Shown piece by piece: positions 2,862-64,000 of a stretch of 64,000 nt of DNA. The DNA comes from Chamaelirium japonicum (lineage: Eukaryota; Streptophyta; Magnoliopsida; Liliales; Melanthiaceae). Position 1 is the stretch's first letter. Each line of letters begins with the position of its first letter. The position numbers were made by a program, and so were the translations under genes. The notes beneath the pieces were generated by a model, which made no database searches, was not told the origin of the DNA, and saw only the letters and a list, made by a program, of their open reading frames with translations. The stretch covers positions 14,401,550-14,465,549 of the forward strand of contig OX393555.1 of assembly GCA_947650365.1 (NCBI GenBank). Reading direction: 5' to 3'.

Positions 2862-3784
2862 TCGGTGCCCCTGATCACAGCCCGGTGCATGCAGTCTCTC
2901 GAGTCGGATTGGGTCTCTCGGTCACAGCCCGGTGCATGCAGTCTCTCGGTCGCCGCACCGATAAGTATCTCAAGTGCAGAACTGGGTTGCAGCTAAATAC
3001 CGAAAAGAGAACTCCTGGGAGGCTTGATAGCAAAGCCAGAGCTAATTTGGACACAGCAAGGGAAGTTGAAAGCAGGGCCCCTGATCACAGCCGTCCCTTT
3101 GCCTGCCGGTTGGGGATGAGTGGGATTCACCGGTCGGGGATGGATGCAACAGCCGTACGGTGCAGACGATGGAACAGATACAGAGGGCGGACGGTTTGGC
3201 TTCAACGGTTAGGAGTTAGGGCATTGGAAACCTCACTGGCCTACTAACTACCATATACACATGCATGGCTTGGAAATTCCGAGCTCTACCAAGTTTTATC
3301 AAATTCTGAAACCTCTAGTTAAGTTTCGCACAAGGTTTCGCATATAAGAGTACGTGACGATGAAAGTTGGAACCATCTAAGGTAATAAGACCAAAATGCT
3401 TATTTATACTCCACACACATAAACAATGCACCTTATTCCATCACTTCGGGGTTCGACAACTCATTCCCGAACCGACGGCAACTCCTACCAAAACAAAATT
3501 TTCTTCAAAACATTTCTCACTAGCTCTAATTCATCCTTACTCATCCCTCTTTTTCAATCCTTTTTTAAGGTGTCAGGGATGCCTTTACCCTATTTTTCAT
3601 CACTTAATTCTTTATTGATGACACACATAGTTCCTACAATGTAATCGCTTCATGCCTTCCAACTCATTCATCCTACTTCTATCAAATATCCACCTCCATC
3701 TTATGCTCCTAAGTTATAAGCACTCCTTATCGCTCAACAATCCGATCCATACAATAAACCTTTGTCTCAACGATATACAACAAT
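2862..3784. other. Intergenic, no gene recognised
   Basis: A 26-base block cacagcccggtgcatgcagtctctcg occurs at 2876 and 2923. The rest, to 3784, holds no recognisable coding or RNA gene. Short frames around 3367-3644 look like chance. Confidence 0.4.
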
Positions 3785-7722: not shown

Positions 7723-8247
7723 TTACTGTTGGAAGTAGAAGGCAAGGGGGTCCGCGGGCGGGCCGCCGAGCGGGCGGGAGATGACGTCCTCCCGCCCCTC
7801 CTCCCGCGGCACGATGTCGACGAGGAAGTCGAAGACGTCGGTGCGGGTGATGGCGGCGGCGATGTCATTCTTCTGGAGGGTGCGTCGCTTGTTCTCCTCG
7901 GCGTGGGCCCAGGACCGGTGGGTGAGCTCGAGGATGAACATCTCGCAGGCCCGGGCGAAGACCACGGGGGCCTCCGCGGCGATCATGCGGACGTCCTCGT
8001 CGGCCTTCATGATCTTCTTGATCCGGGCCAGCGGGAGGTTGTGGTTCTTGAAGTCGGTGGTCTGCTCGATCTCCCGGTACTGGTCGGCCCAGAACATCTG
8101 GAGCTGCTGGTTCTGTTGCTGCTGCTGCTGGTGGTAGAGGTGCTGGTACGCCTGGTACGCCGCCGGCGCCGCCACGGCGGCGGTGTAAGGCACCGAGGGG
8201 GGCACGCCGATCACCGGAGGGGGGTTCCCGTGGCCCTGCTGGTCCAT
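7723..8247 (-). CDS. NF-YC: Nuclear factor Y subunit C (NF-YC, HAP5-type CCAAT-binding factor)
   Basis: The 174-residue protein is one subunit of the heterotrimeric nuclear factor Y, which binds CCAAT boxes. NF-YC pairs with NF-YB through a histone fold before NF-YA joins. After a Pro/Ala-rich head, residues 37-50 are Gln/His-rich. Residues 51-67 carry the [12 protein letters not shown] segment that precedes the fold in this family. The histone fold spans about 68-145, with [31 protein letters not shown] and [13 protein letters not shown]. The tail is only about 28 residues, shorter than in many paralogues. The start is chosen at MDQQGHG, the usual plant NF-YC beginning. Just upstream is a probable 3' splice site, fifteen bases before the ATG, which fits the 5'UTR intron known in this family. 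The coding part is much richer in GC than its surroundings. The CO- and NF-YB-dependent roles known for the family are not shown by this sequence. Confidence 0.95.
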
Positions 8248-8265
8248 CCCTTTGATGTACTCCTG
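8248..8265 (-). other. Probable 3' splice site of an NF-YC 5'UTR intron
   Basis: On the minus strand GTTCCGGCGCAG is followed by GAGTACATCAAAGGG and the ATG. This places an intron end at 8263. I could not fix the donor or exon 1, which probably lie within 8.3-8.8 kb. Confidence 0.5.
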
Positions 8266-8825
8266 CGCCGGAACAAAACCCAGATGTCAAAATCCGAACT
8301 TTCTGAGGAGACAATTGGAGAGAAGAAGGGTTTGATGAGTGGGGAAGACCTGTGATATGGAAGACAAAGGTGGAGGAGGCTTTTGGATTGGGAGGGGAGA
8401 TACTGGTTGAAAGGAAATGTAATTCTAGGGTTAGGGCTTGAGGTGGCAGGACAGGAGACCCGAAGCCAAGAAGGGATCTAAATGGGTGGGCACCTATTGG
8501 ACAGGAGGCTGGGGGAATGAGGGTAGAATTGGGAGTTTCCTCTTTTGTTTTCTTTTTTGTTTGGAAATGTTAACTGCAGCCCTTCTTTTACTAGGGCAAC
8601 CCCCTCTCTCTCTCTCTCCTTTCTTATTCCATTCAAGGGCAACCCCCCTTCTCTCTCTCTTCCTTCTTATTCCATCGTCACGGTTTCCAATCCCATCAAG
8701 ACGTTGCAAGCCTCCAGCGTTGTCTCCGGCCTTCTATAGGCCACCGTACACCTCTGTGGTATATATCATTCTTCCTCTTTCTATTCTTTTTTATTCATCA
8801 GTCTTTTTCTTCCTCTCCAAAAAAT
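8266..8825 (-). promoter_or_regulatory. NF-YC 5' flank: putative intron, leader and promoter
   Basis: The stretch upstream of NF-YC includes two CT-rich blocks on the plus strand (8603-8665) that repeat gggcaaccccc...ctctctctct...cttattccat. On the transcribed strand these are GA repeats of the kind common in plant leaders. No TATA box could be assigned with confidence. Confidence 0.4.
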
Positions 8826-24700: not shown

Positions 24701-27700
24701 TCTTGTGACATATTATATAGGGTGAACCACTTTACCGGCTTTAGCTTGATTACATTCCCTGTAGCTGATTGATATCTCCTTCCTGTGAGTTTCATTACGC
24801 CATATCTGAATTCATCTTGCCTTTTATGGGATTTCAGGGCACTGCTGATGCTGTCAGGCAATATCTGTGGCTTTTTGAGGAGCATAGTATTTTGGAATAT
24901 CTTATTCTAGCTGGAGATCATTTGTACCGAATGGATTATGAAAGATTTATTCAGGCACATAGAGAAACCGATGCTGATATTACTGTGGCTGCACTGCCAA
25001 TGGATGAAAAACGTGCAACTTCGTTTGGTCTAATGAAGATTGATGAGGAAGGCCGCATAATTGAATTTGCAGAGAAGCCAAAAGGAGAGCAACTCAAGGC
25101 AATGAAGGTAGAGGCTTTTGACTAGTTTCTTTAAGGTGTTTAAGGCCATGCAAATTATTGAGCAATCAAACTGTGTATATATCATTTCTTATTAAGGTGT
25201 TCAATAATTCTACCAATACGTGGTGTATCATAATATTTCCCCGTTTTTGTAGGTTGATACCACAATTCTAGGCCTTGATGATGAAAGAGCAAAAGAGATG
25301 CCTTATATAGCAAGTATGGGTATATATGTGATTAGTAAAGATGTGATGCTGCAATTACTTCGTGACCAGTTTCCTGGTGCGAATGACTTTGGAAGTGAAG
25401 TAATTCCTGGTGCAACTAGTATTGGACTGAGGGTGAGTTTGATAGTTTTTTTTTTTCTTCTAATCTCTATATTTAACCATTTTTTTCTTGTAAATCACAA
25501 AACGCTCAGATAGATGTAGATAAATTTGTACTTATTGGTATGGTCCTATGTTTTCTATGTAAAGAAATCGTTACATAAAGAATAAATCCTACATAAATAT
25601 GACAATCTTCAACATCTGAAAATCATAACGTTTGCATTTCTTTCCATCATTTTGATATCGAAATGAGGTTTCCTCCTTTAATTTATTCCAAGTAAACATC
25701 CAATTTCTCAAAGCATCCATGTTATCAATGAACATTAAGTTTTAATATTATGAGCAAATTACAAAAACCTCCCCTGAACTATACTTCGCATTTCATATAG
25801 ATCCCTCAACTTTTTTTTTGAACAATTTGATCCCTAAACTATGCTCTATCTGCATTTAGGCCCATCTACCCTTATCAATTTCCTATAAGACTCAAAATTA
25901 TGCTTACGAGGACAAGGGCATTTTCGAAATAAAAGTTGACAGAGGGGGCTAAATGCAAATGTAGCATAGTTCAGGGATGAAATTGTTTTTAAAAAAAAGT
26001 CGAGGGGCCAATATGAAATGAGGTGTAGAGTTCAGGTGAGGTTTTTGTACTTTGCCCTAATATTATTTTGTACAACTTTAATCCTATATAGATGTCCAAT
26101 TTCTTCATACTATAATGTGCGTTAGATGTTTTGCACGAGGAAGTATCAATTTTGAGTTATGTTTTTATATGATTGAAAATTATTATGCATGGATGCAATG
26201 ACTATATTATTCTTCTGTTTATGGCTCTTTTATTGTATTAAATGTAAGAATACCTTGTTGGGTTACAGGTACAAGCCTACTTGTATGATGGGTACTGGGA
26301 AGACATTGGTACCATCGAGGCATTCTACAATGCAAATTTGGGTATAACTAAAAAGCCAGTACCTGATTTCAGGTAGTTTTTTAGAAGGGATAACATCAAG
26401 AAATAATTTTATTCACTTGGTCATAGTTTAATACCATAATTCCTTTAATATTTATTCTAACAATGGCTAGTAAATTATCTTTGCAGCTTCTACGATCGTT
26501 CGTCCCCAATTTACACACAACCTCGATATTTACCACCTTCAAAGATGCTTGATGCCGATGTTACAGATAGTGTTATTGGCGAGGGTTGTGTCATTAAAGT
26601 AAGTTCTGTTTTTATATTACGTCTCACACATCCGAATTAATCCACACTAAATAGTCTTGTTTAAACATATAACTATAAACTTTTTGGACTGTTTGTCCTT
26701 ATTTTTTTGCTATATGAACATTATGTTGTCAGAATGATTAGAACAAGTAGTTTTTTTACATATAGATGGGTATCTGCATCTTGATTTGTTACGATTCCCG
26801 TGCCCCCTCAAAACCGGTAATGAGAGGGCGGGAGCAACGGTATATGAAGACGTGGAACTCCCACCCCTTCTCCGATGTGAGAGACTATTTTCAACACCCG
26901 CCTGCCCGTAGAGCTCCTCTCGATCGGAGGGAGGGAGAAAGAGGGTGCAACGGTACCACATGGAGGGGAGACGGGGTGAGGCCTAGCTCTAATACCATGC
27001 TACGATTCCCTTGGCCCCCTCAAAACCAGTGATGAGTGGGAGGGGGAAACGGTATATGAAGACGTGGAGCGTCCACCCCTTTACCGGTGTGGGACTATTC
27101 TCAACATGATTAAAACAACCTGATTAGGAAAATTTTAGAGGATGAACAAATTTTATAATCGCGATTATATGGCTGTAGACACACGAATTTCGTCGGACCC
27201 GAACCTGACTTACGTGTGTCGACGCGGATGCAAACCCGACACGCGGACCCGACTCAAAGGCCCCTACGTGGATGCAAACCCGACACGCGGACCCGACTCG
27301 CGCGCACCGATGCGGACCCGGACCCGACTCGCACCTAGCAAAGAGGAGCGGACCCCATGCGTCAAGGGGGGCCGGCCCCTACTAGGGTCCGAACCCCATG
27401 GGGCCGGCCCCTACTAGGACCCGAGCCACATGGGGCCGGCCCTAGTAGGACCCGAACCCCATGGGGGGGGCCGGCCGGCCCTGCAAGGAAAGGGAAGAAA
27501 AAGAAAGAAAAGAAAAAGGAAAGAAAAGAAAGGAAAGAAAAGAAAAGGAAAGAAAAGAAAAGGAAAGAAAAGAAAGAAAAGGAAAAAATACCGCCATGCG
27601 CGGGGGGAGGTAGCGTATGACGTCTGCACACACGCGGATCTGCGCCGATCCCTCGATCCGACGCACAAGACGAAGCGCCCGATCGCCATCGATTTCGTGC

Positions 27701-35054: not shown

Positions 35055-35194
35055 TGTTAATGTATATAGATGGGTCGGGTTACTTGTACAGTCGGGTCGG
35101 GTTGTATGGTCATACATGTACATATATATTGGGCTTGAGTCCCTCAATAGAGACAATTCCATTCTCTCCAAACCCTAGTCTTCATCTCCTAACA
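35055..35194 (+). repeat. Copia 5' LTR
   Basis: TGTTAATGTATATAG...CATCTCCTAACA, 140 bp, is the same as the copy at 39795-39934. Confidence 0.95.
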
Positions 35195-35224
35195 TGGTAT
35201 CAGAGCTCTAGGGTTCTCTCGTGC

Positions 35225-35870
35225 GACGACGGCAGCCCCCCTCCGGCCTCCCTCCACTCGGCAGCCCCTCCTCCGGCCTCCCTCCACCCGGCAGCCCTCC
35301 CCTCCGGCCTTTCCTCCTCCCGGCAGCCCCTCCCCTTCACCCGGCAGTCACCTCCGGCCACTCCTTCACCCGGCAGCCCCCCCTCCGACCCATCTACACC
35401 CCGCAGGCCCCCCCTCCGCCTCCCTCCACCCGGCAGCCCCCCCCCCCCCTCCGGCCCCATCTGCACCCCGCAGGCCCCCCCTCCGCCTCCCTCCACCTGG
35501 CAGCCCCCCCCTCCGACCCCATCTGCACCCCGCAGGCCCCCCCTCCGCCTTCCTCCACCCGGCAGCCCCCCCTTCCGGCCCCACCTGCACCCCACCGGCC
35601 CCCCATCCGCCTTCCTCCACCAGGCAGCCCCCCCCCAGCCCTATCTGCACCCCGCAGGCCCCCCCTCCGCCTCCCTCCACCCGGCAGCCCCCCCTCCGGC
35701 CCCATCTGCACCCCGCAGGCCCCCCCCCCCTCCGCCTCCCTCCACCCGGCAGGCCCCCCTCCGCCCTCCCCTGCACCCCCGCCCCCTCCTGCACCCCCCT
35801 GAAGCCCCACCGCCCCCTCCTGCGCCCCCCCTGAAGCCCCACCGCCCCCCCTTCTCCTCTGTACGAACTG
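35225..35870. repeat. C-rich tandem repeat inside the Copia element
   Basis: Imperfect units of about 61 bases (ctgcaccccgcaggccccccctccgcctccctccacc) repeat about ten times. Frames on both strands stay open (Pro/Ser-rich on plus, Gly-rich on minus), as expected from composition. Confidence 0.85.
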
Positions 35871-36133
35871 CCTTAGACCTCCCTTGTGCCGGCTCGCCCC
35901 CGTACTTCAGGGGTATGGCTTCCTACAGCTTCTCTCGACTCCCATACTGCCTGCACACAGTCGCTGATCGTCGAGTCCCTCAGTCTCCTCGTTTTGATGG
36001 TATTCTCGGGCCACGTCCCTCCACCACGTCCGTCGATTGTGGACGTCGTCAGGGTCCCCTCCGCCATGATGGCGAGACTGCTGCTGCTGCTGATCTCCCT
36101 ACTCCAGCACCACCTGCCACCACTCCTGCTCCG

Positions 36134-36484
36134 TCTCGGTCTTACTTCGACCGCCTCCAGCGCTTTGAGGAGTTACTGTTGCGATACCTCGCATCCACCA
36201 GCTCTTCGACCGATCACAGTCTCTCTGCCACTCCGGATACTTCTGCTCAGTCTCGGTCTTACTCCGACCGCCTCTAGCGCTTTGAGGAGTTACTGTTGCG
36301 ATACCTCGCCTCTACCAGCTCTCCGTCAGCTCACAGTCTTTCTGCCACTCCGGATACTTCTGCTCAGTCTCGGTCTTACTCCGACCGCCTCCAGCGCTTT
36401 GAGGAGTTACTGTTGCGATACCTCGCCTCTACCAGCTCTCCGCCAGCTCACAGTCTTTCTGCCACTCCGGGTACTACTGCTCCA
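36134..36484 (+). repeat. 117-bp (39-codon) tandem triplication inside the Copia element
   Basis: Copies start at 36134, 36251 and 36368 with tctcggtcttactYcgaccgcctc. The period is a multiple of three. Each copy encodes a segment with SRSYSDRLQRFEELLLRYLA, just ahead of the protease region. Confidence 0.9.
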
Positions 36485-39400
36485 TGGATCTTCGACTCGG
36501 GTGCCTCCTGCCACCTTACCTCCGATCCTTCTGTCCTCACGGACTGTAGCCCTGCTCCTACCCACATGGGGATTCACACTGCTGATGGGACTCGTCTACC
36601 CATTTCGCAGTGTGGATCCATCACCCCTGCCTCGGATCCCACTGGTCGCCTAACCTTACCTCGTGTTCACCTTGCTCCCCGCTTAAACATTAACTTAATA
36701 TCTGTTAGTTCTCTTTGTGACTCGGGCCTGATCGTTACATTTACTTCTTCTTCTTGTTCTGTGCAGGATCCGCGGACGGGTCAGAGAGTTGGGCTGGGTC
36801 GTCGAGCAGGGGGACTCTATCAGTTGGATCACCTTCAGGTTCCCACTTCCACTCCGTCGGCTCTGTCTGTTACCTCTGATGCCGATTTGTGGCACAGAAG
36901 GTTAGGTCACATATCCAGTGATCGACTCCAAAGCGTTTTTCGCTCTGGCGCTTTGGGTCGGGTGTCCTTCTCCCCTCTCTTTGTCTGCACTGGGTGTCGA
37001 TTAGCCAAACACCTTGCTCTTCCTTTTTCTACTAGTGTTTCCCGTTCCAGCGCCCCTTTTGATCTCGTGCACTCTGACGTGTGGGGTCCTGCTCCAGTTG
37101 CCTCTTTTACTGGTTTTTTGTATTATGTGAGCTTCATAGATGATTACTCCCGCTGCACCTGGGTCTATCTCATGCGTCGCCGCTCCGAGATTCCTCATAT
37201 TTACAGGACCTTCACTACTATGCTTCACACCCAGTTTGGTCGGCGTATTAAGACTTTTCGGTCTGATTGTGCCCAGGAGTATCTCTCCTCTGAGATGCGT
37301 GAGATCCTTCAGACTCACGGCACTCTTCACCAACAGTCGTGTCCCCATACCCATGAACAAAACGGAGTCGCCGAGCGCAAACATCGTCATGTCCTCGAGA
37401 CAGCACGAGCTCTACTTCTGTCTGCTTCTGTTCCACATTCCTACTGGGCTGAAGCTGTCCTGACCGCTGTTCACCTCATCAATATCACTCCGTCCTCATC
37501 CCTCTCGGGTGTTTCCCCGTACGAGCGGCTTTACTCCACATCTCCTGACTACTCTCTTCTTCGTACCTTTGGGTGCACGTGTTTCGTCCTCCTCCCTCCC
37601 CATGAGCGCACCAAACTCTCTGCTAGGTCTGTTAGGTGTGTTCACTTAGGACTCAGTCGGGAGCACAAGGGCTATCGGTGCTACGATCCCTTAGCTCGCC
37701 GGATCCGTATCTCTCGCCACGTCTCCTTTGTAGAGGATGTCCCGTACTTTTCCACTGAGTCCCGGGATCTTCCCTCACCACTTACGTCCTCTTCTACGTC
37801 GTTACCCTCCTCTCCTGCGTCACCCTCCTCACCTTCATCACATCTCCACATTCCCGTTCTACCCCCGTTTTCTGTTGCCCCACCCACACCTACTCCACCT
37901 CCATCTTCCCCGCCACCTCCACCACCACCACCACCTCCTCAGTCTCCCTCGCCTCCTCCACCACCACCTGTTACTCGTGTCTATGTTCGTCGGTCTGCAG
38001 CTCCTCCTCCAGAGTCGATTCCCACTGGTACTCCCTCGCCTGATGTTGTTGCCCCCTCCTCCCCGGTCGTGGATCCTGCTCCTGTTCGGCGCTACCCGGC
38101 GCGCGAACATCACCCTCCTGACAGATATGACTACTCTCCTGACAGGTTTGGCTACTCTGCCTTTCCCTCTGACTCTCCTGACTCCTCTGGCTACTCTGCC
38201 AGTGCCTCCTATTCACCTTCTTTTCAGGCCTTTCTTACTGCTATACACACCCATCGGGAGCCCCAATCGTACCGTGAGGCAGCGTTGCATCCAGAGTGGC
38301 GGCAGGCCATGTCAGTTGAGCTTGAGGCTTTTCAGCGGACCCAGACATGGGATTTGGTGCCTTGTCCCTCAGGTGTGGTGCCTGTTAGCTGCAAGTGGAT
38401 ATTCAAGGTCAAGACTCGACCTGACGGATCCATTGAGCGGCACAAGGCTCGCCTCGTTGCTCGTGGCTTCTCCCAGGAGTATGGGATTGACTACGAGGAG
38501 ACGTTTGCTCCAGTTGCTCGGATGACTACTGTGCGCACCCTCTTACCTGTGGTAGCTGCTCGAGGGTGGCCTCTCCATCAGATGGATGTCACCAATGCAT
38601 TTCTCCACGGTGATCTCTCCGAGGAAGTCTTCATGGCTCCTCCTCCGGGCACTTCAGTTCCTCCAGGGCACGTGTGTCGGTTGCGCCGAGCCATCTATGG
38701 GCTCAAGCAGGCCCCTCGTGCCTGGTTTGAGCAATTTCGCAGTGCAGTTCTGGCCGCCGGTTTTGTTGAGCGTCACTCCGATTATGCCTTGTTCACTCGC
38801 TCCTCCAGTCAGGGCATTGCAGTTCTTCTCCTCTATGTGGATGATATGATCATCACTGGGGATGACAGTGCCACCATCGCCTCTCTCCAGCGGCACCTCC
38901 AGAGTCAGTTTGAGATGAAGGATCTGGGATCTCTTCGCTACTTTTTGGGCCTTGAGATTGCCCGGTCAGCCCATGGTCTGTTGGTCTCCCAGCAGAAGTA
39001 CATCTCCGACATCCTTGCTGATGCTGCTCTTACTGACACACGCACTGCTGATACACCCATGGAGCTCAATTTGAAGCTTCTCGCTACAGACGGTGAACCG
39101 CTCCAGGATGTCTCCCGCTACCAGAGGCTGGTTGGGATGCTCGTCTACCTCACTATGACCCGGCCAGACATTGCTCATGCTGTTGGCATTGTCAGTCAGT
39201 TTGTTCAGGCTCCACGCTCAGTTCTCTATGCAGCTGTCCTTCGGATTCTCCGCTACCTCCGAGGCACCATCACCCGTTCACTCCTGTTTCCCTCCACATC
39301 TCTGTTGGTGCTGCGTGCCTACTCTGATGCAGATTGGGCAGGAGATGTAGCCACTCGTCGCTCTACTACAGGATACTGTGTGTTTCTGGGTGATTCGCTC

Positions 39401-39794
39401 ATTTCGTGGCGCAGTAAGAAACATGAGTCTGTTGCTCGCTCCAGCACCGAAGCCGAATACAGGGCTATGGCTTCCACCACCGCAGAGATTGTCTGACTTC
39501 GCCGCCTTCTGCTCGACTTGGGAGTTGTGATATCCGGGCCCACGCCTCTCTTCTGTGACAACCGGAGTGCTATTCAGATTGCTAGCAACCCGGTCTTCCA
39601 CGAGCGAACAAAACATATCGAGGTTGATTGTCATTATGTTCGCCAGGCGTTTCTCGACCACACCATCTCCTTGCCATTCATTTCGTCATCGGAGCAGACT
39701 GCTGATTTTCTGACGAAGGCCCTTACGATTGCTCGCTTCCGACACTTTATCGGCAAACTCTCGGTTCATGATCCACCGTGAGTTTGAGGGGGAG

Positions 39795-39934
39795 TGTTAA
39801 TGTATATAGATGGGTCGGGTTACTTGTACAGTCGGGTCGGGTTGTATGGTCATACATGTACATATATATTGGGCTTGAGTCCCTCAATAGAGACAATTCC
39901 ATTCTCTCCAAACCCTAGTCTTCATCTCCTAACA
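39795..39934 (+). repeat. Copia 3' LTR
   Basis: No difference from the 5' LTR was seen by eye over 140 bases. Confidence 0.95.
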
Positions 39935-60016: not shown

Positions 60017-60019
60017 CTA

Positions 60020-60125
60020 CACTACAAGAAAACAGACTATTTGCGACGGTAAAGAGCGACAGATTAAATCCGTCAGATTATAGCGACGATTTTAATCCGT
60101 CGTTAAAAGTCAATATTTCGTCGCA
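60020..60125 (+). repeat. CACTA terminal and subterminal repeats
   Basis: The terminal CACTACAAGAA is followed by at least four GCGAC/GTCGC-type motifs: gcgacggt, gcgacag, gcgacgat and, inverted, tcgtcgc. This spacing is typical for En/Spm ends. Confidence 0.8.
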
Positions 60126-60963
60126 ACTGATATCCCCCAAATATTTCTAAAAAAAAAAATACATAGCACCCACGTTCTATAATTCGCGCGCAACTGGGGA
60201 AAAAAAAGGCGCGCCCTCCGCTTCCTCCAAACGGGGAAAGTGGTTTATTGCTCTTTGGGTGTTCATCCGATTGAGTTATCACATGATCACAATCGTCCAT
60301 ATAATTAATGCCCTAATATATTTACCCATCCCAGCTCCTCATGGTCACGAGCCGCTCCCTCTCTTCTCTCGTTCCCCCCTCTTCATCAGCACATCCCCCG
60401 CAGCACAGTACATCCTTGATTCATCGATCATAGCCCTGGATTTCAAGTAGTGGGAGGCGATCCACTCCCTCTCTCCCATCTTCATCTGCACGGCACCAGC
60501 AACGGAACCGGGTTTGATTCAATTCCTTGGAAAATTGTTTTTTTGAAATTATTTCTTAGAAAAATAGATTTTAAGTACATGAATGCCAGAAGGTTGCAGC
60601 GGAGGACCTTGTCCTCTGTTTTAGGGTATACATATCTCATTGTATGTTCTATATGAGTTTTGGTTTTGGATTGACATCCTGCACCACCTATTACCATGCA
60701 CACCTCCCATGGCTTCCTTTGGATCCTTCCCCATAAATCCCCATAAAACCATGTCCCTTCCACTCCTCTGGCATTTGGAGTATTGAGACCCCAATATGGG
60801 ATTCTCCAAATGGGTCGCTTTTTTTTTTTTTTTTTTTTTTGAGAAATTCCAAATGGGTCGCTTTGATTTGCCTTCTCGATTAGTTGAACATGGCACTGGC
60901 CGCTTCATATGTGCCCGATGCTACCGGATTCCTCCGGTTGGAAAATGATCCAGAGTTTTCAAC
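60126..60963. other. CACTA leader, origin unclear
   Basis: No protein frame is recognised. At 60821-60848 a stretch of about 20 T residues plus gagaaatt is flanked by the 15-base direct repeat ccaaatgggtcgctt (60806-60820 and 60849-60863). It is a tiny retrotransposed poly-A insertion in minus orientation. Confidence 0.5.
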
Positions 60964-61853
60964 TTGATGGTCGGGGTGAGGAAGAGGATCCACGATAACT
61001 TGGAGTTGGGGTACAAGGAATTCTAGACTTGTGAGCTCATTCGGCGGGAGCTACACAAGATGGGCATCCCCTACAAGCATCAGGTCGTCGGTGTTGTCGG
61101 ATTCAGAGGCTCTGTTTTGTCGCCTTCGAACCGACATGTATGCCCCTGCCATGCAGGTTTCCCCTTTCTAGTTTTAATTTTGTGTGAATGTATATATATT
61201 TGATAAATTCTTGTTTGATCTTAAATGGGTTTTGCCTGGTATCCAAGAACTCTTAAAGAAACAAGGAAAAAAAAAAGACTGGTATGACTTTTGGGATCTT
61301 TAGAGGATTGTGTATTTAGTTGGGTGTTGTACGGTTTTCAAGAAATCTCCATTATCTTCAATCTTGTTGAAATTTCAAATTCCCAAAGTTAGTTTCCTTC
61401 GTCGAGGGAATTTGCATTATTGTTTTTTGGAAACTCTTCGGCAAAGATCGATCAAGGAAGAGAAACCCCTAATCTTTATGAAACATGATAATTTCAATTT
61501 TAGTCATCTTGATAGGAATTTTAGCTCAAAGTCTTGATTTGAGAATCTGCAAAATATCGATTCATTTAAATCGAGAATTTGAATAGTTATATCCACTTAT
61601 TTTACTTGGATTTCACTATATTTGCTTTATATATTTTAATCCCCTTCCTTCTAGCGTTTGTAATTTCCCACCATTTTTTTAACTTTATCCTAAATTCCAT
61701 CTCTGTGATAATGGATAGGAAAGTGTGGAGTGGGAGCACAAATATAAAGTCCTCGGGAAGCATAGCGATGAGTTGAATGCTAGCCATGATGAACATGTTT
61801 CAATGTTGCTAGTAGATAGAAAGATCCTTTACGAGGGTAACGACGAGTTGAAG
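60964..61853 (+). pseudogene. ILL: Captured ILR1-like IAA-amino-acid hydrolase fragment (two exons and intron)
   Basis: IAA-amino-acid hydrolases (M20 metallopeptidase family) free auxin from its conjugates. Exon A (60964-61156) reads LMVGVRKRIHDNLELGYKEF, then a TAG where the family has Glu, then TCELIRRELHKMGIPYKHQV. After a one-base frame change it ends LRTDMYAPAMQ just before a GT donor (family: LRADMDALPMQ). Exon B (61719-61853) follows an AG acceptor. It reads ESVEWEHKYKVLGK, then SHDEHVSMLL and NDELK, and ends at a GT, as in the genuine genes. The family metal-binding segment MHACGHDAH is replaced by an altered stretch lacking its Cys. It is thus a transduplicated, non-functional gene piece. 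No later exon was found. Confidence 0.75.
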
Positions 61854-63153
61854 GTTTGCCATTAGTTTAGATCTTCTCTTTTATCTTGAATATTTTATTA
61901 ATTTGTTATTCAGCAATTAAAGTTGATTAAGAGAAGAATAAGGTAGAATATTTCTTACGTCACGATATGTTATAGTTGATTACAGTAAATGGTAAATTTG
62001 AAAATATTTTTTATATTTTTTATGAGAGAAATTATTGTTACTGGATGTACCTTTTATAAATTATTTGTGTATTATGTGAAGAATAACTTTTTTTTTCCCT
62101 TGTAGTACATCATTAATATCAATAAAATAGTAAAAAATTTGTGTTCAACCCTTCTTTAAATTAGATAGCCTTGAATTATCTTAGAAATTTTCTACTACAG
62201 GCCATGATTGATTTAGTGATTCTTCCATCAATAGGAAGATTTGTTCAGCTTGTTGGGTAGTCTTCACTCTATCCTTAAAACCTACTTATTAGCTCTTTAA
62301 CTATTAATTATCGTCTCATACTTAGTGCCTAATTTTAAGCTTCCTTTGGTTACCAAACATGTATAAATTATTTCTGTTTTAGATCCATTATTCTTGAATA
62401 CATGATTTGGAGTTTGAAAAGTATGTGTTTTGTTGTGCATAATAGGACCCGAATATTTAAACATTATCACTTTGTTATGAAAGTTTTAATTATGTTATTT
62501 ACTTGCTAATAACATGTATATATTTTACTCATATTTTGTTACTTTACTCAGGTTATAGATATTTTTACATTTAGCTAAATCGAAACTTTTTTTGTTATTT
62601 GAGCTTCGATCGGTTGATCATTAATAGTTCTGTGAAAACATGATTACTTCAAAAACACTAGTTCCTGATATGTTGGATTTTAGCAACACCCACATTTATA
62701 TGTATCGATAATATATGAATCCTATGGTGGTCATCCTTTTTGTAATTCATACTTTCTAATTTGTGCATTGCCTTATTAACATGATATCTTTATTATCGTG
62801 ATATCTATTATTCTTGAAAATAGTGATTTCCATTATTCACCTCTCACTGATTCCTTTTCCTAATTAATTGCAGAAAATATTCACTTGAGAAGATTGTTCT
62901 ACAAGCCATTTTATTCCTCGACTAAAGGTAATAGTTATTCCTCGACTGAAGGTAATAGTTCAAAATTTGATTCCATTAATGACATTATAGAAGTTGTTAT
63001 ATGTTCAATTTTTATGAAAAAAAATTATATTTAAACATTGGATTTTTTTTTGTTTTGTTTATGTGGTTAACTACATGATATGTATTGATTAGTGATATAA
63101 CATATATATGTGATTCTATATTTTTAGGTCTACGTCATAAAGATATATTGTCC
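61854..63153 (+). other. CACTA region between captured fragment and transposase; likely 5'UTR with intron
   Basis: AT-rich sequence with no recognised frame. A 24-base block ttattcctcgactRaaggtaatag is duplicated at 62911-62934 and 62935-62958, each copy containing an AAGGTAAT donor-like site. A 3' splice-like TTTTTAG lies at 63121-63127, 26 bases before the transposase ATG. These could be the donor and acceptor of a leader intron. Confidence 0.45.
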
Positions 63154-64000
63154 AATGGAGCGGAGTTGGATTACACTTTCTTTTCCAGACCAACGTTTTG
63201 TGGATGGTGTCGATAAATTTTTGAACTTTGCACGGGAGCATCTTCCTGGTAGAGAGAAAATTATTTGTCCATGCAGGAATTGTACAAACATACACATACC
63301 AATCTGCTATGATGATGTTAGGTTTGATCTTTTCAAATATGGATTCAACCCAACATATACGGTCTGGCACTTCCACGGTGAGTGTGCAACACTTGAGTCT
63401 ACTGAACCTGTACGAATGTTTGAAGATGACCTCAATGAGATATCATTGGATAACCAAGATAAATATCTTATAGACTCAATAGTTCAAGATCTTGATGGTA
63501 ATCCTGAAGTCTCAAGTTTTCAAGATGAGACGAATGTAGCGGTTGGTGGTGAAGAAGCTATTGACAATGATCCAGACATCGATTTTAAGAAAAACATGCG
63601 AGAGGCTATGACTGCATTATACCCTGGATGTGAAGATTTTACTGTGCTCACATTCGTTATAAAACTATACAACATAAAGATGAAATACGGATGGAGTGAT
63701 ATAAGTTTTACAGAGCTTCTTCAATTGTTCCAAAAGGTCTTACCTTTAGGTAATAAGACCTCGAAGGATACCTATCGTGCAAAGAATATTATAAAAGAGC
63801 TAAGTCTTGATTATGAGAAGATCCATGCTTGTCCAAATGATTGTATCTTGTATTGGAGAGAGCATCAGTCCAAAAGCAGTTGTCCAATTTGTGGTGCTTC
63901 TAGGTATAAGATAGTTCTCGATCAGAAAAAGAGAGGAACTCGAGTCCCTGCTAAGGTGTTAAGGTATTTTCCATTAACACCGAGGTTACAAAGGATGTAT
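63154..64000 (+). CDS. CACTA TNP2-type transposase, N-terminal part, open to the window edge
   Basis: The frame from ATG (MERSWITLSF) stays open for 282 codons to the last base of the window. It catalyses cut-and-paste transposition in En/Spm elements. Residues 1-76 form the transposase-associated domain found at the N-terminus of TNP2: RSW, FVDGVDKFLNFA, CPCRNC (38-43), a GF/YT pair and WHFHGE. A linker of acidic residues follows, then AMTALYPGCEDFT, KYGWSDISFTELLQL, IHACPNDCILYWREH and a zinc-finger-like CPICGASRYK. These lead into the catalytic domain (Transposase_21 type), which continues beyond the edge. No stop or shift is seen in the visible part, so this copy could be autonomous, but most of the catalytic core is not in view. 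The start fits the family's usual MD/ERSW beginning. Confidence 0.9.

Follow-up and report, generated by a model that had tools for sequence, protein, structure and literature searches.

Capture of a hydrolase gene 5' piece by a CACTA element that carries its own transposase in Chamaelirium japonicum

The window analysed here is a 64,000-nucleotide stretch of Chamaelirium japonicum DNA (C7:14401550-14465549, contig OX393555.1). Close to its right edge, exon-like pieces of an ILR1/ILL-type hydrolase gene lie beside one end of a CACTA element, and the question is whether the transposon took up this host DNA and moves it as cargo or whether a resident gene fragment was hit by transposon pieces. 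The window also contains a 187-aa open frame at 7726-8286 (-) with CBFD_NFYB_HMF and Histone matches, by eye an NF-YC-type subunit gene. A 1072-aa frame at 36278-39496, by eye a copia-type polyprotein, lies between two identical 140-bp stretches within 35055-39934, and the self-complementary stretches at 25743-26065, 58-201 and 680-876 (70-78% alike to their own reverse complement) are possibly MITE-like.

We determined the extent of the element, which runs from C7:14461569 (window 60020) to C7:14472503, beyond the window end, and is 10,935 bp long with CTA on both sides. Its terminal inverted repeat is a perfect 13 bp, CACTACAAGAAAA, and begins CACTA. The motifs GCGAC and CGACGG, which were picked by eye, are found 6 times in the first 250 bp and 14 times in the last 1000, with 0.12 per kb in the middle. 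Pfam models Transposase_21 (3.8e-89), DUF4218 and DUF4216 match beyond the window end. With CACTA termini in an inverted repeat, a 3-bp target-site duplication, TNP2 domains and subterminal repeats, this is a CACTA (En/Spm) element. It is not a Pack-CACTA, which is without its own transposase: the transposase domains are present, and the four C7 stretches tested are stop-free. A TNPA-type second product looked likely by eye, yet the five pieces 3' of TNP2 all fell below every Pfam cut-off. The copy on contig C9 is 12,397 bp long with ATA on both sides. At the C7 right end (C7:14472401-14473130), the element's last ~100 bp and the adjoining flank are duplicated about 230 bp downstream, in a tandem-repeat flank that resembles the left-end flank.

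Table 1. Features of the CACTA element and its captured segment, in window coordinates.
Feature	Position	Strand	Remarks
Left copy of the 3-bp target-site duplication, CTA	60017..60019	.	CTA also at C7:14472504-14472506, after the right end
CACTA 5' end: terminal inverted repeat, GCGAC/CGACGG subterminal motifs, element's own 5' region	60020..60680	+	
Captured ILR1/ILL-type segment: leader, exon 1, intron 1, exon 2 and ~470 bp of intron 2	60681..62320	+	71-74% DNA identity with the C8/C11 genes; ends from BLAST, accurate to some tens of bases
Captured exon 1, donor start codon to MQ/GT	60796..61156	+	TAG and several frame-changing indels
17-bp direct repeat (60805-60821, 60848-60864) flanking poly-T, within captured exon 1	60805..60864	.	
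Captured intron 1, GT...AG borders	61157..61718	+	
Captured exon 2	61719..61853	+	Filler resembling its own 3' end in place of the HACG stretch
Captured 5' part of intron 2	61854..62320	+	C11 alignment to about 62320; C8 diverges near 62243
Start of TNP2-type transposase gene	63155..64000	+	Transpos_assoc, E=1.2e-17

Window positions 60967-61156 and 61719-61853 read as neighbouring exons of an ILR1/ILL hydrolase. Spliced into 108 aa (window frames, X at the stop), they were searched against the PDB (177,635 distinct sequences, E up to 10), where the sole match was Arabidopsis ILL2 (1xmb/2q43, E=3.8e-17). The Pfam M20 model did not match a 111-aa exon splice, and captured exon 2 alone matched zero Pfam models. 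Since Pfam is silent, the identification rests on the PDB match together with the DNA match to donor-type genes described below. The splice borders read CAG/GT after 61156, AG/GAA at 61719 and AAG/GT after 61853. A preliminary description of this DNA had proposed consecutive ILR1/ILL-type exons with preserved intron borders, placed between a CACTA end and a TNP2-type gene. The ILL2 and donor matches, the GT, AG and GT at these borders and the order of the features in Table 1 bear this out. It had placed the capture at 60964-61853; the hydrolase exons are there, but the captured piece is larger, about 1.64 kb.

A DNA search with 60964-61853 against the genome (1.519 Gb in 3253 contigs, including the window) gave nine matches: the window itself, C4, C9 and C1 at 98-99%, three partial matches on C2 at 97-98%, and C11 and C8 at 71%. 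The C8 and C11 loci are genes with five exon matches to ILL2 each and no stops inside the exons. Their exons 3-5 bear AG and GT, the borders of exons 1-2 were aligned with those of the captured piece, and the protein of the C8 gene matches Peptidase_M20 (2.1e-46). Ks between the two genes is 0.108 and Ka is 0.015 (305 codons of exons 1-4, three at splice borders), and both are under purifying selection. The preliminary description had proposed finding a parental ILL gene in the same genome and comparing introns; the captured piece does align with the C8 and C11 genes through the introns, at 71-74% DNA identity. Because the introns match, the capture was from DNA and not from a transcript, which rules out uptake via a processed transcript. 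Other ILL genes were rejected as donor: at places on C10, C5 and C1 amino acid identity is 42-48%, whereas exon 1 of the C11 and C8 genes reaches 67-69%. The C8 and C11 genes are relatives of the donor gene, and the age estimate below bears on whether one of them or their common ancestor supplied the piece.

Six copies carry the captured stretch, at five distinct insertion sites. When the left flanks of the six were compared, only the C2a/C2b pair was alike. The three partial matches on C2 represent a copy interrupted in intron 1 (C2a) and a first part only (C2b), whose left flank is identical to that of C2a, so it is a segmental or assembly duplicate. At C2:10217578-10233976, an insert of ~15.5 kb interrupts captured intron 1; it has CACTA-type ends itself and, by eye, is flanked by TAT, so that one CACTA is nested within another. 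Two copies are truncated, C1 at element base 3378 and C4 at 6749. Both element ends were seen at C7 and C9 only; the right ends of C4, C1, C2a and C2b did not appear in the sequence covered. Among the five aligned copies, differences amount to 0.4-2.8% in the captured stretch, 0-2.4% in the element's own 5' end, 1.0-2.8% in the spacer before TNP2 and 0-1.7% in the start of TNP2; most copies differ by about 2%.

The preliminary description had suggested comparing copies with and without the insert. The six copies with cargo supply the one half, but a close capture-free element was not found. Among the matches listed, the close ones to the N-part of TNP2 were on C7, C2, C4 and C9 at 97-100%, all four with cargo, and the next reached at most 41% identity over the whole piece or 48% over part of it. 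This comparison covered 141 matches listed and 138 of 2286 candidates scored; among those 138, every element with a close transposase carried the cargo. The element 5' end (bases 1-659) has 38 genome matches, comprising the six full copies, 21 terminal matches and 11 to inner stretches. The 21 terminal relatives are 77-88% alike, start at base 1-4 and reach base 122 at most, and the inner stretches, within element bases 181-617, recur elsewhere in the genome. The three of the 21 related 5' ends that were read (4 kb each) have bases 1-121 in common with the element, one also has 453-524, and zero TNP2 or ILL2 matches were found in them at E up to 1. Without a close capture-free relative, the uptake junctions are not bracketed by an empty element. 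Several stretches resembling the element's 5' end are clustered at C9:57633981-57759048.

The captured piece is heavily damaged. The in-frame TAG of the preliminary description is confirmed in captured exon 1, but its single frame change understates the damage: aligned with C8 and C11, exon 1 has several indels, with 6-, 10- and 1-bp losses, and the piece has a further 1-bp loss near 60958. Directly 3' of the captured start codon (60796) is a 43-bp insertion, relative to C8 and C11, of poly-T and its flanking direct repeat. This insertion is in 6 of 6 copies and absent from C8 and C11, and so most simply arose after capture and before spread; it resembles the scar of a retroposition event. In exon 2, the HACG stretch, which we take to be a metal ligand of the hydrolase, is replaced by GCATAGCGATGAGTTGAA, in keeping with the reported loss of the metal-binding Cys region. 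This sequence is the 3' end of donor exon 2, exact in C11 and with one base different in C8. It is filler templated from nearby, though it may be later damage rather than a product of the capture itself. At C7, hydrolase exons 3-5 have no match within 20 kb. A functional ILR1/ILL hydrolase has the HACG motif and an open frame through all exons, and the captured piece has neither. With HACG replaced, the TAG, the frame changes and exons 3-5 unmatched, the copy is unable to make the enzyme, as had been claimed.

Decay of the cargo was compared with the condition of the transposase. At sites where C8 and C11 agree, changes specific to the captured exons fall on codon positions 1/2/3 in the numbers 28/28/23, whereas the differences between C8 and C11 are distributed 1/3/15 (positions 1+2 versus 3, Fisher p=1.2e-4). 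The result is similar with the filler excluded (23/24/21, p=3.7e-4) and for exon 1 alone (p=0.02), and on this pattern the captured exons show no coding constraint. C>T plus G>A account for 111 of the 209 captured-specific changes and T>C or A>G for 21 (107 of 198 and 20 with the filler excluded), with direction assumed from C8/C11 agreement. Methylated, silenced DNA is expected to show such an excess, which suggests that the captured DNA is or was methylated. Four transposase stretches, with borders chosen by us, have zero stops or gaps in C7, C9 and C2a and pooled pN/pS of 0.23 (C7-C9) and 0.18 (C7-C2a); these counts show purifying selection on the stretches tested. The C4 transposase has a stop and, versus C7, 14 nonsynonymous and 3 synonymous changes, and constraint is not evident there.

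For the age of the capture we used transversions, because the transition excess would inflate it. Over 779 intron sites, the transversion distance is 0.072 from the captured piece to either donor and 0.028 between C8 and C11, a ratio of 2.5 (bootstrap 1.8-4.1); if the element evolved faster overall, this ratio would nevertheless be too high. At face value it would place the capture before the C8/C11 duplication, or the element would have come from another plant. Horizontal transfer of an element that had already captured another plant's own ILL gene would jointly explain the small family (five sites, 97-100%), the lack of a close transposase relative (at most 41%) and a piece that falls outside C8/C11; we consider it quite improbable. 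If it did occur, the fossil exon-intron piece would serve as a label of the source species.

We conclude that, with high probability, the 1.64-kb 5' piece of an ILR1/ILL gene was acquired by a CACTA (En/Spm) element that has a transposase of its own and carries the piece as passenger cargo. The gene capture proposed at the outset is supported by donor-type genes with matching introns, by six copies at five sites and by homology that lies inside the element ends. Uptake occurred at the DNA level, between the CACTA 5' terminus and the TNP2 gene, possibly in break repair (the one templated filler tract inside the cargo would be a trace of this, unless it is the later damage considered above) and probably in this genome's ancestry, earlier than the C8/C11 duplication. 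The element with its cargo now occupies five or more sites. The cargo encodes no enzyme and decays unconstrained; as a passenger it would move because the transposase stays functional.

The window itself holds one element end only, which would fit a resident ILL pseudogene and separate CACTA insertions brought together by local coincidence. However, the right end and target-site duplication are present at C7 and C9, and at unrelated places the 5' end recurs together with the captured stretch, with homology from the CACTA end. Because they recur at five unrelated sites, the hydrolase piece is cargo of the element and not a resident gene into which transposon debris inserted. The six copies at five sites thus refute this reading, which the preliminary description had itself raised, and we give it practically no credence.

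If the piece is cargo, it could still have acquired a use. Its leader and splice sites may have become the transposase gene's transcribed 5' leader and aid expression: the cargo has the same orientation, lies between the element end and TNP2 and includes the donor start region, GT/AG/GT are kept in the five aligned copies (C2b lies outside the alignment), and the cargo is present in 4 of 4 copies with a close TNP2 match among the matches listed. We find this unlikely nonetheless. By our own arithmetic, at about 81% identity six splice bases survive by chance in about a quarter of cases, and the captured part varies between copies about as much as other noncoding sequence, in copies that are too alike for judging selection on the splice sites. 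The element copies are probably silenced, to judge from the C>T excess, and the piece shares with both donors an identical 33-nt run, 24 nt of which are exonic, that spans the beginning of exon 2. Small RNAs made from the piece might thus silence the donor genes in trans, much as the preliminary description had suggested. Against this, identical exonic 21-mers number 6 of 456 in C8 and 4 of 456 in C11, and both donors are kept under purifying selection; the proposal looks weak, and we rate it as very improbable. Passenger cargo is the reading we retain.

The locus clearly exemplifies gene capture, a phenomenon already known, and does not open a new class. As a case it is compact: the element is complete, target-site duplications and donor-type genes are identified, there are several copies, and decaying cargo stands against a transposase under selection. 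Since the cargo falls outside both resident donors, it can reveal either for what length of time useless cargo persists in a transposon lineage or a foreign origin of the element. The preliminary description had considered capture of this family by a CACTA element not to be a standard example. Among the literature matches listed there is indeed no CACTA element with an ILR1/ILL gene, which is weak evidence as most subscription journals lie outside the search, but related captures have been published, which weakens the claim of rarity. As described in an excerpt of the Chenopodium study (PMC8978399), CACTA elements there contain captured fragments of Neprosin and AP2 on the 5' side of the transposase-associated domain, in regions its authors call prone to capture. 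Those elements are likewise TNP2-type, with the host fragment in the 5' region 754-1342 bp upstream of that domain, compared with about 835 bp here. Set against that excerpt, the present piece is 1.64 kb with two exons, an intron and a leader, its donor-type genes are identified, and it occupies several insertion sites in one genome. Maize Ds2-22, in the portion of the report consulted (PMC3260210), carries ILR1-like3 exons 5-6 and their intron, a fragment of the same enzyme family that was also captured from genomic DNA and has its donor elsewhere in the genome. In contrast to the present element, it is a Ds2 element of the hAT superfamily and took exons 5-6 rather than the gene's 5' end. Soybean Tgm-Express1, according to the excerpt (PMC1947982), is a CACTA with host exons, introns and usable splice sites, but it is 5.7 kb long and made up of five unrelated gene fragments, and its splicing was shown with cDNA. 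A 2026 review describes, in its excerpted text, transduplication by Pack-CACTA (PMC13317346). Pack-TYPE elements, as the excerpts define them (PMC8903248, PMC13317346), also hold captured host DNA between CACTA ends but are non-autonomous, whereas the element described here carries transposase domains.
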